A DNA stretch of 40,196 nt from Gammaproteobacteria bacterium. GTDB lineage: Bacteria > Pseudomonadota > Gammaproteobacteria > GCA-2400775. The stretch spans positions 972 to 41,167 of the forward strand of contig JAADIY010000026.1 in the NCBI GenBank assembly GCA_013151045.1. The letters are read 5' to 3'. Numbering within the stretch: position 1 is the first letter of the stretch; each line of letters opens with the position of its first letter. Shown piece by piece: positions 35,013-40,196 of this stretch. The notes beneath the pieces are model-generated. The model worked only from the letters and a program-made list of their open reading frames with translations. It ran no database searches and was not told the origin of the DNA. The position numbers and the translations under genes were made by a program.

Positions 35013-35975
35013 ATGAAACACGATCAGATTCGAAAACTCAGTCAGATTCTAAAGGCGCGGCGCACACCTGTTGCTATTCGTGTTCTAGCAGACGAACTCG
35101 ATTGCACCACCCGAACAGTGCAACGCTATCTTGACGACTTGCGCGACATCTACCACGCACCGTTAGATAACCTGCCCGGTAAAGGCTGGATACTCGACCA
35201 GAAAAATAGCCCTAACTGGGAAATACCAGGTTTATGGTTAAGCGAACAAGACATTCAGTCGATGTTGCTATTGCTGTCCATTCTCAAACGTTTTGGTAAC
35301 GGCCTCATGCGCAAAGAGCTAAAACCAGTCGAACAACTCATCAACAACACCCTAGCACAACGCAATATCTCTCGCAGCCAAATAGACCAACGCATCAAGA
35401 TTATTCCCCTAGCCAATGCTGTCCTAACTAATAAACACCTCTATTGTTTTTTTAACGCCATCATCAACCGTCAACAAATTACCCTGGATTACTGCGATTA
35501 CCAGCAGCAACACAGCCACCGAACCATCAGCCCACAACGCCTCGTCTATTACCGCGACAACTGGTTTTGCGATGCCTGGTGTCACCGCCGCGACGAGCTA
35601 CGTACCTTTGCCCTTACTCGTGTAGAGCAAGCCGAACTGGCCAATAACAAAGCCATAGACATTGCCAGCGAACAACTGGATCAGCATTACAGCCCCGGCT
35701 ATGGCTTGTTTGCAGGTAACAATAAATATAAAGCCACCCTACGGTTTTTTCCTACTATCGCCCGCGACATTGCCAAACAACAATGGCACCCACAGCAACA
35801 CGGAGAATGGGATGGCAACGACTACCTGCTCACCCTACCCTATTCCGACCAACGCGAATTGGTACAAGACATCCTGCGTCACAGCCCTAACGTCATCGTA
35901 GAATCGCCAGCGCGCTTAAAAAATGCCGTCAAGCGCCAATTACACATGGCCCTAGAGGTTTACAATCAAGTCTAA
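35013..35975 (+). CDS. WYL-domain transcriptional regulator of the Cas locus
   Basis: The 320-aa protein has an N-terminal helix-turn-helix (about 1-60, VAIRVLADELDCTTRTVQRYLDDL), a linker, a WYL domain (about 150-215, with the ISPQRLVYYRDNWFCDAWC strand pair, where the WYL triplet is WFC, and DELRTFALTRV), and a C-terminal WCX extension (about 240-318). WYL domains sense nucleic acids or nucleotides and often control CRISPR-Cas and other defence loci. It lies 89 bp upstream of cas1 in the same orientation. The start has AGGAG unusually close (three bases) to the ATG. Confidence 0.88.
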   Translation: MKHDQIRKLSQILKARRTPVAIRVLADELDCTTRTVQRYLDDLRDIYHAPLDNLPGKGWILDQKNSPNWEIPGLWLSEQDIQSMLLLLSILKRFGNGLMRKELKPVEQLINNTLAQRNISRSQIDQRIKIIPLANAVLTNKHLYCFFNAIINRQQITLDYCDYQQQHSHRTISPQRLVYYRDNWFCDAWCHRRDELRTFALTRVEQAELANNKAIDIASEQLDQHYSPGYGLFAGNNKYKATLRFFPTIARDIAKQQWHPQQHGEWDGNDYLLTLPYSDQRELVQDILRHSPNVIVESPARLKNAVKRQLHMALEVYNQV

Positions 35976-36012
35976 CTATAAAAAACTACTGTATAAATAC
36001 TCACGACAGGTT

Positions 36013-36040
36013 TTGTCACTGGCGTGGGGTAGGATATAAA
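36013..36040 (+). promoter_or_regulatory. Candidate cas1 promoter
   Basis: TTGTCA at 36013-36018 and TATAAA at 36035-36040 are separated by 16 bases, each matching the sigma-70 consensus at five of six positions. The cas1 ATG follows 24 bases after the -10 and is preceded by AAAGGA. This would let cas1 be transcribed independently of the WYL gene, with a very short leader. Confidence 0.5.
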
Positions 36041-36064: not shown

Positions 36065-37024
36065 ATGGAACAGCTAACGGACTTAAAAGCCATCCTTCAC
36101 TCCAAACGTGCCAACATTTATTATTTAGAAATGTGCCGTGTTATGCAAAAAGACGGTCGCGTACTTTACCTCACCGAAGAGAAAGTCGAAAAGCAATACT
36201 GGAACATCCCAATCGCCAATACTACCTGCATCTTACTTGGCACAGGCACATCCATTACCCAGGCAGCCGTTAGAATGCTGGCATCGGCCGGCGTACTGAT
36301 CGGTTTCAGCGGCAGCGGTGGCACACCACTCATTGCTGCCAACGAAATTGAATGGTTATCACCACAAAGCGAGTATCGGCCAACGGAATATATCCAGGGC
36401 TGGATGACCTTCTGGTTTGACGAACAAAAGCGTCTCCTCGCAGCCAAATCCTTTCAGCAAAGCCGCCTGGATTACCTGTTGACAGTCTGGTCGAAAGACC
36501 GGGATTTACAGACCGAAGGGTTTGCAGCGGACGATACCGGCATTCAGAGAGCCATCAGTAATGCCTCCGCAAAAATAGAACGCTGCACCCGCGTATCCGA
36601 CCTGCTCCTGGTCGAAGCGCAACTCACCAAGCAGCTTTACAAGATTGCTGCCAATCGCACCAAACAGGGTAATTTTACCCGTGACCATGCAGCGGTCGAT
36701 AACGCCAACGCCTTTTTGAATCATGGCAACTACCTGGCCTACGGACTTGCCGCCACCACACTCTGGGTGCTTGGCATACCCCACGGATTTGCCGTCCTGC
36801 ACGGTAAAACCCGGCGCGGCGCACTGGTTTTTGATGTGGCAGACTTAATTAAGGATACGTTGATTCTACCTTGGGCATTCATCTGCGCCAAAGAAGGTGC
36901 GAGCGAACAGGAATTTCGCCAGCAATGCCTGCAAAATTTCACCCAGCACAAAGCCCTCGACTTTATGTTTGAGAAAGTAAAAGCCATTGCACTGGAAACC
37001 CACTGGGAGACGCAAACCCCGTGA
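36065..37024 (+). CDS. cas1: CRISPR integrase Cas1, type I-F
   Basis: The 319-aa protein is the type I-F (Ypest) form of Cas1, the integrase that inserts new spacers. The N-terminal beta domain has RANIYYLEMCRV and the glycine-rich turn IGFSGSGGTPL. The catalytic helical domain carries the metal ligands expected for the family: E184 in LLVEAQLTKQLY, H246 in VLHGKTRRGALVFDVADL, and D257 or D260. Length fits (Pseudomonas aeruginosa Cas1 is 324 aa). In this type cas1 is normally directly followed by the cas2-3 fusion on the same strand; here a toxin-antitoxin pair intervenes. No stop or frameshift interrupts it, so it appears functional. Confidence 0.96.
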   Translation: MEQLTDLKAILHSKRANIYYLEMCRVMQKDGRVLYLTEEKVEKQYWNIPIANTTCILLGTGTSITQAAVRMLASAGVLIGFSGSGGTPLIAANEIEWLSPQSEYRPTEYIQGWMTFWFDEQKRLLAAKSFQQSRLDYLLTVWSKDRDLQTEGFAADDTGIQRAISNASAKIERCTRVSDLLLVEAQLTKQLYKIAANRTKQGNFTRDHAAVDNANAFLNHGNYLAYGLAATTLWVLGIPHGFAVLHGKTRRGALVFDVADLIKDTLILPWAFICAKEGASEQEFRQQCLQNFTQHKALDFMFEKVKAIALETHWETQTP

Positions 37025-37069: not shown

Positions 37070-37441
37070 TCACACAGAGGGTTTCCAGCAAAGTTGCAGA
37101 TCTTCAGCAACGGCCCGCAAGCGACGATCCTTCGTCCAGAGGGAGGTGCCAGGTGTGAGTAATACAGAGGCCAGAAGATGGATATCAATCCAGCCTGTCC
37201 CTTTGCCCATTAAACAGTTGTGCTCAAGACAGTGTAGCGCTTCACTGTGTGACGTTTCGACGGCATGTGGCAGTTTGTGTAGCAAGGCGATGAGGGCATG
37301 ACGATTGTGCAAATTCCCACACGCCAGTTCACCAATGACCATCGGGTGCATCAATACTCGGCCTTGTTCAAGCAGTGCGACGAGTACCGAATTCGTCGAA
37401 CGCAAATGATCTACCCAGACAGAGGTATCAACCAATACCAT
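37070..37441 (-). CDS. vapC: VapC-type PIN-domain ribonuclease toxin
   Basis: The 123-aa protein is a PIN-domain RNase, the toxin of a type II VapBC module. The acidic active-site residues are visible: D5 in VLVDTSVWVDHLR, E38 in VIGELACGN, D86 in GWIDIHLLAS, and D105 in WTKDRRL. VapC toxins typically cut tRNA or rRNA. It begins five bases after the vapB stop, the usual antitoxin-first operon. The gene runs opposite to cas1 and converges with it, with only 45 bases between the two stop codons. Confidence 0.94.
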   Translation of the reverse strand: MVLVDTSVWVDHLRSTNSVLVALLEQGRVLMHPMVIGELACGNLHNRHALIALLHKLPHAVETSHSEALHCLEHNCLMGKGTGWIDIHLLASVLLTPGTSLWTKDRRLRAVAEDLQLCWKPSV

Positions 37442-37446
37442 GGCAA

Positions 37447-37647
37447 TCAGCTGGAGGGTTTTGATCGGCGCCGGCGGATAGATTCCAGTGCCGGTTCAGA
37501 ACCGCCCAAACGTGCCAACCTGCGAGCGCTTTCACGCTCAATCAAGGCTTTCAGACCTTCGCGCAACAAGGCTGTTTTTTCAGAAATACCAGTCAGTTCA
37601 ACAGCTTGCTCGTATAGTAAATCATCAATATTTAAGGTGGTACGCAT
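37447..37647 (-). CDS. vapB: VapB-type antitoxin
   Basis: The 66-aa protein is a ribbon-helix-helix antitoxin of the DUF2191/VapB family, with the DNA-binding strand MRTTLNIDDLL and helix, the conserved TGISEKTALLREGLKALIERE, and a Ser/Arg-rich C-terminal toxin-binding tail. I chose ATG 37647, with GAGGG upstream, over the preceding TTG. VapB binds VapC and, with it, the operator in its own promoter. It is divergent from cas2-3, with 90 bases between the start codons. Confidence 0.93.
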   Translation of the reverse strand: MRTTLNIDDLLYEQAVELTGISEKTALLREGLKALIERESARRLARLGGSEPALESIRRRRSKPSS

Positions 37648-37677
37648 CAATCAGCCCTCGAAAACGCATCAAAATAT

Positions 37678-37712
37678 GCATCATTATATGCAATTAATGA
37701 TGCTATTTGCAA
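37678..37712 (-). promoter_or_regulatory. vapBC promoter with overlapping perfect inverted-repeat operator
   Basis: On the minus strand TTGCAA (37712-37707) and a perfect TATAAT (37688-37683) are separated by 18 bases. A perfect nine-base inverted repeat, GCATCATTA (37678-37686) and TAATGATGC (37695-37703), with an eight-base spacer, covers the -10 and most of the spacer. This is the expected place for VapBC autorepression. The same DNA is also the region immediately upstream of cas2-3. Confidence 0.75.
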
Positions 37713-37737
37713 CTCGAATAATGGCAGGTGACCCACC

Positions 37738-40196
37738 ATGATGGTTACCTTCATTTCTCAATGCGAAAAGAAATCACTCAATAAAACCCGACGAGTGCTT
37801 GACGCATTTGCTAACCGCATCGGCAATCGAACATGGCAAACTGTTATTACCAATGAGGGTTTGCAGGCGGTGAAGAAGTTGTTACGAAAGACAGCGAGCA
37901 AAAATACAGCGGTGAGTTGCCATTGGATACGTAGTCGTAGCCGGAGTGAATACCTATGGGCAGTTGGCAATAAAGATAAATTTAATTCGGAGGGCATTGT
38001 GCCTGTGAATTATACCAATCAACTTGATGCACTAAAAATGGATGAAATCGACGTGAACATTAAACAATACTACGCAAATACAAAGAAGCAACCACTAGAT
38101 CAGCATCTATTCGCAGTGGGTTATGTTGCACATCAAATCATCAAGCAGTTTGCTATTGACGATGATGGAGGCAAGTTAGCGAGAGCTGTTTTTATATCAG
38201 GATGTCTGCATGACATTGGTAAAATTGATCCTGCTTTTCAAACATGGATTATAGATAAAACAAAAAATAAACTTATCAATGAGTTGCCCGATGAAGGGCA
38301 GCATATCAACAAAGCTGGAAAATTCTCGTTTGAAACGCATCCCCGACACAATGAGATTTCAGCATTGCTATATCATTTAATGGTAAACGATAATTACAAA
38401 GAAAAGGACGCATTAAATAATGCCAATAAAAACAGAGTCAAACATGCACTCTATTGGCATCACGCTAAACCGATAAGAAAACAAGAATTTAAAACACTCG
38501 ATACTGTTTACAAGAAGCTCAAGAAAAATATCGGAGATGCTGAAATAACGACACTAATACAGGTCTTTAAGCAGATTGTTGCTGGAATCAATACAATTTC
38601 AAACAGCTATTTTTCTGAAGATTCAGAAGACCTCTTACTACTCAAAGGATTTCTATCAAAGTTAGATGAAGACAAGATATATGAACTTGATGATGAACCT
38701 TTGCCTAAATACAAGCGATATGCTCTGAATGAAGATATTGATGATTACGTCGGTTATGTGAAGGAAAACGCCAAAAACAACCTTGCCCGAACGGCACTGA
38801 TTACTGCGGATCGCTTGGTGTCATCCATTAGCTCTGAAGCTTTAAACAATCATATTGAAGAAGCCTCGTTAAACACACTTTTAGAATCGGCCTTAGCCAA
38901 AGAGCGTGGCTTAAAGAAAGACATACAAGCCTGTCTTGATGGATTTATAGAGAGGTTCCCAGACAGCGATCAAAACAAAGCACAAAGCATAGCCGCGAAT
39001 AAACTAACAGAAGTTGATGATATTGGTGTGCTCAATGGTCCTGCTGGTTGCGGTAAAACTAAAATCGCTCTGGAGTGGGCAGTTTTAGGAAATGCCAGGA
39101 AAATAATCTGGGTCTGTCCACGGGTTCAAGTCTGCCAGGGGTTAATTAATGATTTAACGGCTGATGACTATTTGCCTGATACAAAAATTGAAATCAATAC
39201 CGGTGAATTCAAAACCATTTACCAATCAAGCAAAGAAACCGAAACACCTGAAGGACAAGAGTTTTCAGGTGACATCGTCATTACCACGATAGACCAAATC
39301 GTTAATGCTATTGTCACTCATCGAAGCGTGACCACATTGGTTGAGTATATGAATGCTCATATTATATTTGACGAATACCATGAATATATCACCATGCCAG
39401 CGTTTAACCTGTTATTCGCAGAGCTGGTGGAATGTAAAAAACTTCAACAAGATAACGCCAACACACTTTTAGTATCAGCGACCCCAAACTACTATTTTGT
39501 AGAAAAATTACTAGACATTGACGCTAACGATATTATCGGTATTGATAGCTTTAATAATAGCCAGTATTCCATTCAGTTCGCTAACTATGATGAAACCTTA
39601 CAGGATAACGGCAACCCACTTTATGAAAACCAGCCAGAAAGCACCTTTGTTATCAGTAACACAGCCATTACGGCACAAAAGAGCTTTATCCAAAACCAGA
39701 GCAATGAAAATGCCTTATTAATTCACTCCAAGTTTAAGAAATCAGATAAACAAGAGCTGTTTGAAAAGGTGTTTGATTGTTTTAAACGGGACGGAAATAA
39801 ATCCTACGATGTACTACGAGCAGGGCCGATTGTGCAAGCTTCATTGAATATCACCTGTAACAAAATTATTACCGAGTTTACCCACGCCGAGAATTGGCTA
39901 CAGCGATTAGGGCGGCTTGATCGCTTTGGTGAAAACGATGCAATCAATCTATACATTACTGCTGTTCCAGAAAGCATAGCCGAAACCGGAAAACAAAAAG
40001 GCGCTTGCTCACGTTTTCTAAGTGGCTTGCATAGCTTCCAAAGTGCAAAAGCATGGCGAGAGTTTTTAATGGATAAAGATATTGAAGGCAAATCCGTAAC
40101 ACTTGCAGAAATCTATCAGCTCTATCGAGACTTTTATGAGGATGACAAATGCCGTGATGCAGTTGATCAAGATTTGATAGGCGCACTTAAAAAGAG
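37738..40196 (+). CDS. cas3: Type I-F Cas2-Cas3 fusion (nuclease-helicase), C-terminus outside window
   Basis: The frame is open for 819 codons to the right edge. Residues 1 to about 95 are the Cas2 domain of I-F systems (VTFISQCEKKSLNKTRRVL, NRTWQTVITNEGL, then VSCHWIRSRS and a terminal VPVNYT). The HD nuclease follows (H158-D159 in CLHDIGK, with downstream HHAKP). The helicase has Walker A GPAGCGKTK (434-442, K440), DEYH (545-548), motif III SATP (580-583), and motif VI QRLGRLDRFG (722-731). It cuts and unwinds target DNA recruited by the Csy complex, and its Cas2 part works with Cas1. The start ATG 37738 has AGGTGA six bases upstream; a second ATG follows at once. The expected csy1-csy4 genes and CRISPR array would lie further right. 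Confidence 0.96.
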   Translation, partial: MMVTFISQCEKKSLNKTRRVLDAFANRIGNRTWQTVITNEGLQAVKKLLRKTASKNTAVSCHWIRSRSRSEYLWAVGNKDKFNSEGIVPVNYTNQLDALKMDEIDVNIKQYYANTKKQPLDQHLFAVGYVAHQIIKQFAIDDDGGKLARAVFISGCLHDIGKIDPAFQTWIIDKTKNKLINELPDEGQHINKAGKFSFETHPRHNEISALLYHLMVNDNYKEKDALNNANKNRVKHALYWHHAKPIRKQEFKTLDTVYKKLKKNIGDAEITTLIQVFKQIVAGINTISNSYFSEDSEDLLLLKGFLSKLDEDKIYELDDEPLPKYKRYALNEDIDDYVGYVKENAKNNLARTALITADRLVSSISSEALNNHIEEASLNTLLESALAKERGLKKDIQACLDGFIERFPDSDQNKAQSIAANKLTEVDDIGVLNGPAGCGKTKIALEWAVLGNARKIIWVCPRVQVCQGLINDLTADDYLPDTKIEINTGEFKTIYQSSKETETPEGQEFSGDIVITTIDQIVNAIVTHRSVTTLVEYMNAHIIFDEYHEYITMPAFNLLFAELVECKKLQQDNANTLLVSATPNYYFVEKLLDIDANDIIGIDSFNNSQYSIQFANYDETLQDNGNPLYENQPESTFVISNTAITAQKSFIQNQSNENALLIHSKFKKSDKQELFEKVFDCFKRDGNKSYDVLRAGPIVQASLNITCNKIITEFTHAENWLQRLGRLDRFGENDAINLYITAVPESIAETGKQKGACSRFLSGLHSFQSAKAWREFLMDKDIEGKSVTLAEIYQLYRDFYEDDKCRDAVDQDLIGALKK

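Follow-up and report, generated by a model that had tools for sequence, protein, structure and literature searches.

The type I-F2 cas locus described here carries, between cas1 and cas2-3, a vapBC cassette that was probably mobile and probably entered the cas1/cas2-3 junction antiparallel to the cas genes, bringing its own promoter and operator; on this reading cas2-3 would be expressed mainly by read-through, and any coupling between the toxin–antitoxin (TA) pair and the nuclease gene would be incidental. By the window we mean the whole 40,196 nt stretch of DNA that was analysed. The original prediction for this locus was that VapBC occupancy of an operator in the divergent region ahead of cas2-3 is placed to tune expression of that gene. 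The divergent arrangement is confirmed and is found again at L007, L025 and L034, but the proposed mechanism is not supported, since the operator is family-wide and the region holds no plus-strand promoter above chance.

The features of the locus are collected in Table 1. As predicted, vapB and cas2-3 share a single divergent region, the start codons of vapB (ATG at 37647, minus strand) and cas2-3 (ATG at 37738) leaving exactly positions 37648–37737 between them; the gene-finding tool placed the vapB start at a TTG at 37650, in frame and 3 nt upstream of the ATG. The vapB gene lies directly upstream of vapC on the same strand, with 5 nt between them, and the VapC translation contains the PIN acidic motifs (VDTSVW, GELACG, WIDIH and WTKDRR). 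Domains, motifs and operator together identify the pair as a putative VapBC type II TA module; among solved structures, none matches VapB or VapC by sequence. The cassette resembles described VapBC type II operons with autoregulatory inverted-repeat operators (PMC3920265) in its antitoxin–toxin order, PF09957 VapB, PIN toxin and operator over the −10 element, but differs from them in lying antiparallel inside a cas operon, which places a cas gene next to its regulatory DNA. The cas genes themselves share Cas1fv and Cas3fv with the type I-F2 (I-Fv) systems of Shewanella putrefaciens CN-32 and Vibrio (PMC6360697), but in the window cas1 and cas2-3 are 713 bp apart and the contig ends in cas2-3, 2 bases past the matched frame and before any cas7fv, cas5fv or cas6f. 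A search of the draft genome for cas7fv and a typical I-F repeat, run without a positive control, found neither, and an Rfam scan of the window was empty.

Table 1. Coordinates of features at the cas1/cas2-3 junction (window numbering)
Feature	Position	Strand	Basis or remark
WYL-domain regulator, upstream of cas1	35013–35975	+	HTH_11, WYL, WCX
Candidate cas1 promoter TTGTCA-16-TATAAA (36013–36040) with CGACAGGTTTTGTCA (36004–36018)	36004–36040	+	−35 inside CGACAGGTTTTGTCA
cas1, type I-F2	36065–37024	+	PADLOC Cas1fv, E 3.5e-178
vapC	37070–37441	−	123-aa PIN-domain toxin, PF01850 (PIN 1.3e-06)
Open frame antisense to vapBC	37298–37741	+	147 aa; TGA overlaps cas2-3 ATG by 4 nt
vapB	37447–37647	−	66-aa antitoxin, PF09957 (2.4e-14)
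Divergent region vapB (−)/cas2-3 (+)	37648–37737		90 bp
Predicted vapBC-family operator GCATATAATGATGCATATTTTGATGCG	37665–37691	−	Covers vapB −10 and predicted start site
Perfect 9-bp inverted repeat	37678–37703		Arms GCATCATTA (37678–37686) and TAATGATGC (37695–37703)
Predicted vapB promoter TTGCAA (37712–37707) -18- TATAAT (37688–37683)	37683–37712	−	Predicted start about 37676
Weak plus-strand promoter-like pair TTAATG-17-AATAAT	37694–37722	+	Chance-level
Shine–Dalgarno AGGTGA of cas2-3	37726–37731	+	Sequence
cas2-3, type I-F2	37738–40194	+	PADLOC Cas3fv, 1198 bits; open at window end

The regulatory DNA in the 90 bp gap is, on the evidence of its sequence, the vapBC cassette's own autoregulatory equipment. 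The near-consensus vapB promoter and the perfect nine-base inverted repeat of the original prediction are both borne out: the promoter ranks among the best 0.1 % of 90-mers from the window in a consensus scan, and the arms of the repeat are 100 % complementary across an 8 nt gap. When the 90-mer was shuffled 2000 times with dinucleotides preserved, 23 of the shuffles had a 9 bp arm. GCATCA/TGATGC half-sites occur at four positions (37644, 37666, 37678 and 37698), with 0.11 expected per 90 bp. About 30 relatives of the window VapC were drawn from 369 genomes of the class and the 110 bp upstream of vapB compared; the 31 upstream regions contained 66 TGATG/CATCA half-sites against 15.4 expected. 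The 27 usable vapBC loci that lie away from cas genes, and no others, served to build a 27 bp position weight matrix with the consensus GCATCAAATGATGTATAATTTGATGCA. This matrix matched the window operator at 29.2 bits, a score reached in 0 of 300 shuffles, and also matched L007 and L025, with a weaker match in L034 (p 0.07). In the window the match stands at −44 to −18 from vapB, near the usual position in relatives outside cas loci, and the inverted repeat comprises a portion of this operator together with an additional half-site, at 37698. Since a motif learned outside cas loci matches here, the regulatory DNA most simply belongs to the vapBC cassette; the idea that the operator evolved for cas2-3 was rejected, because the same family operator is found at vapBC loci outside cas genes. 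By analogy with the family, the operator DNA from 37665 to 37703 would serve vapBC autoregulation, with VapBC bound across the vapB −10 element and start site, and the vapB promoter would be derepressed when toxin is in excess or antitoxin is lost. The control region touches the start of cas2-3, and nothing in it points to control of that gene.

Comparison with relatives suggests what the junction looked like before the cassette arrived. Of the 125 distinct junctions, 79 show an overlap of exactly 4 bp (ATGA) between cas1 and cas2-3, and at 96 the gap is 30 bp or less; inserts of more than 150 bp are present at 24, a fraction that is approximate because the sample consisted of the best 80 of 423 relatives together with even genome draws. 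One I-F2 relative with an empty site, L021, has a Cas3 about 71 % identical to that of the window. The ancestral junction would have been a 4 bp ATGA overlap within one operon, into which a mobile vapBC cassette with its own promoter and operator would have moved in antiparallel orientation.

Judged by its occupants, the cas1/cas2-3 junction of type I-F is evidently a recurrent cargo site. Antiparallel vapBC pairs of the window type are found in the window, L007, L025 and L034, and those of a second group, with a MazE-like antitoxin, in L050, L138 and L092, also antiparallel; a further vapBC pair lies forward in L044. Other junctions hold KilA-N (L008, L060, L064 and L081), Bro-N (L033, L035, L134, L141, L169 and L171), RhuM (L059), ORF6N (L082 and L075) or WYL (L145) genes, or ParDE-like and YefM/YoeB-like pairs in forward orientation (L161, L164 and L165). 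Representatives of the inserts were named by Pfam and the others by sequence resemblance only, which is the case for the ParDE-like and YefM/YoeB-like pairs. The KilA-N, Bro-N, RhuM and ORF6N genes lie in sense orientation, many of them almost touching or overlapping the cas genes on either side (L060, L064, L059, L081 and L082 among them), an arrangement that fits a cas1-X-cas2-3 operon. An orientation bias of TA inserts, with all of them reversed, was considered and dropped in view of the forward TA pairs in L044, L161, L164 and L165.

The window-type cassette does not seem to have reached its present hosts by simple descent. For the four loci that carry it, a single clade was rejected both for the Cas1 proteins (94 lnL units, p-AU 0.006) and for the Cas2 domains (p-AU 0.005), and a single ancestral insertion carried vertically with cas1 is thereby rejected. 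Between the four loci the VapBC proteins are closely related, and a single origin for them was not rejected (p-AU 0.43). This is read most simply as one vapBC lineage having arrived at the junction on several occasions, or having been passed from one cas locus to another by recombination; the window and L007 may share one insertion event (p-AU 0.44). The toxin is not always kept, since vapC of L034 (5365–5723) is frameshifted and split over two frames; the adjoining cas2-3 is one continuous match.

Why the cassette is kept is a separate matter, and one answer is that it acts as an addiction module, stabilising the cas operon because deletion of the junction would free VapC, with no role in cas2-3 regulation. 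Unrelated TA families have come to occupy one junction (two kinds of vapBC, and pairs like ParDE and YefM–YoeB, the last two recognized by resemblance), as might be expected of such a function, but so have KilA-N, Bro-N, RhuM, ORF6N and WYL genes, which are not classical TA pairs, and vapC is broken in L034. We regard addiction as possible but rather doubtful; it is compatible with the insertion that we favour, as it concerns only the retention of the cassette.

With respect to the transcription of cas2-3, the original prediction pointed to a weak plus-strand promoter-like pair overlapping the inverted repeat. On that basis a cas2-3 promoter would overlap the vapBC operator, VapBC would repress in both directions and stress would raise expression in both. 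Such control gains some plausibility from the short distance of 90 bp that separates cas2-3 from vapB, a stretch containing the operator, and from the recurrence of the layout in the three loci named above. However, the pair is equalled in score by 33 % of the 90-mers in the window and by 48 % of the shuffles, and it is absent from the output of the consensus scan; moreover, its predicted start (about 37729) falls within the cas2-3 Shine–Dalgarno sequence, and a transcript beginning there would cut off the cas2-3 ribosome site. Its −35 element lies within the spacer of the vapB promoter, so that the two promoters could not be occupied together and simultaneous firing would be impossible. The pair was accordingly rejected as a cas2-3 promoter, being chance-level and misplaced. 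Scans with consensus sigma-70 weights, which may miss non-consensus promoters of this genome, covered the gap and the complete insert in the window and in five other antiparallel vapBC loci; on the plus strand they gave no promoter scoring above chance, and the other loci offered no better-placed candidate above that level. Given also that the operator is generic to the vapBC family, joint repression of vapBC and cas2-3 from this region is very improbable.

Read-through from cas1, across vapBC in antisense, is our best guess for the origin of cas2-3 mRNA, because no plus-strand promoter above chance was found in the insert, the window scan turned up nothing resembling a plus-strand terminator from cas1 to cas2-3, and the candidate promoters ahead of cas1 (8.1 bits) and ahead of the WYL gene (8.5 bits) score higher than the one in front of cas2-3 (5.2 bits). 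Gene order and strands agree with the earlier statement that a cas1 transcript would have to cross vapC and vapB in antisense. The cas2-3 gene has retained its own ribosome site and would be translated from mRNA begun mainly at the cas1 promoter; the message would include some 700 nt of antisense RNA that is largely non-coding, and Rho could stop read-through there. Bound VapBC might then be a partial roadblock to the read-through polymerase, and an active vapB promoter would fire against it. Under read-through a freed operator would produce a converging vapBC transcript and thus lower cas2-3, which makes the predicted rise of cas2-3 on freeing of the operator doubtful in sign; the effects of freeing and of occupancy would both be negative or nil. 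Any effect of VapBC on cas2-3 would therefore be only incidental and most likely negative.

It could be argued that this opposition has itself been selected as a TA–CRISPR switch, with a VapBC roadblock or collision from the vapB promoter acting against cas read-through, and cas RNA acting as antisense to vapBC. The ends of vapC and cas1 are indeed convergent and 45 bp apart, with no terminator found, and the same layout persists in divergent loci. However, L034 retains the layout with its frameshifted vapC, TA pairs at the same site elsewhere lie forward, and opposing effects follow from any antiparallel insertion and so are no evidence of a selected switch, which we consider unlikely.

The open frame antisense to vapBC bears on a further proposal. 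In the window it comprises 151 open codons, and 4.8 % of synonymous-codon shuffles are as long; frames of this kind also occur in L025, L050 and L138 (shuffle fractions 0.033, 0.086 and 0.31, against 0.048 in the window), with none in L007 or L092. In L050 and L138 the frame stays open the entire way between the cas1 stop and the start of cas2-3, spanning the complete insert. With shuffle fractions of up to 0.31 and no such frame in two of the loci, the idea that selection keeps the frame open is only suggestive, and its ATGA overlap with cas2-3 is alone no evidence, because this TGA would close every plus-strand frame in that register. In the proposal concerned, the I-F cas1/cas2-3 junction would be a dedicated docking site for TA and KilA-N/Bro-N genes with cargo functionally coupled to the adaptation–interference operon, and antiparallel vapBC would oppose or gate cas2-3 through shared DNA, ribosome coupling being preserved by way of the antisense frame ending at the cas2-3 start. 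We think this distinctly unlikely. If the junction were a true docking site, TA and phage-type regulatory genes would have been built into the type I-F adaptation–interference operon, and the cas1/cas2-3 ratio, normally fixed by coupling, would have been opened to change; if it is not, the locus is a caution that a divergent layout alone is no proof of shared control. The junction would also offer a simple way of asking if expression of a CRISPR nuclease can be adjusted by a TA promoter.

In the open-licence literature we found no description of TA genes between cas1 and cas2-3, and the word toxin is absent from a review of CRISPR regulation (PMC10013973). The closest concept to TA genes in a cas locus is that of the CreTA/CrePA modules (PMC12737573), in which a toxin module likewise lies beside cas genes but the toxin is repressed by the Cas effector under the direction of a crRNA-like antitoxin (PMC12737573, PMC10097628). 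CreP toxins typically carry a KilA-N domain (PMC12737573, PMC10097628), as do some of the other inserts at the cas1/cas2-3 junction. The window TA differs in being a self-contained protein pair, and the control proposed for it runs in the opposite direction.

The WYL gene upstream of cas1 recalls Sll7009 and BrxR, WYL-domain proteins that regulate CRISPR and defence loci (PMC9122601); Sll7009 is reported to repress a type I-D locus (cited in PMC9122601). The likeness is that cas1 is preceded by a WYL regulator both in the window and at other I-F loci, and that the cas1 promoter has a candidate inverted-repeat site; the difference is that this candidate site accompanies only a few WYL genes. 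The sequence CGACAGGTTTTGTCA at 36004–36018 is a possible WYL site. Near-identical copies occur downstream of WYL genes in L075 and L145 and a weaker copy in L013, with none after most others; since three of these loci supplied the consensus of the putative site, L013 alone counts as an independent match. The TGACATGTTTTGTCA-like sequence that follows the WYL gene in these four loci, the window included, overlaps the putative cas1 −35 element in the window.

Two further observations concern recombination. The Cas2 domain of the window protein (37738–38030) is 80–89 % identical to that of I-F1 Cas2-3 proteins (L006 and L007) and the remainder of the protein is I-F2, so that the two parts may have been recombined together. 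In L165 the insert contains, at 559–783, an apparent cas2-start fragment fused to an internal piece of cas1, beside YefM/YoeB-like and ParD-like genes, which looks like a sign of recombination at the junction.
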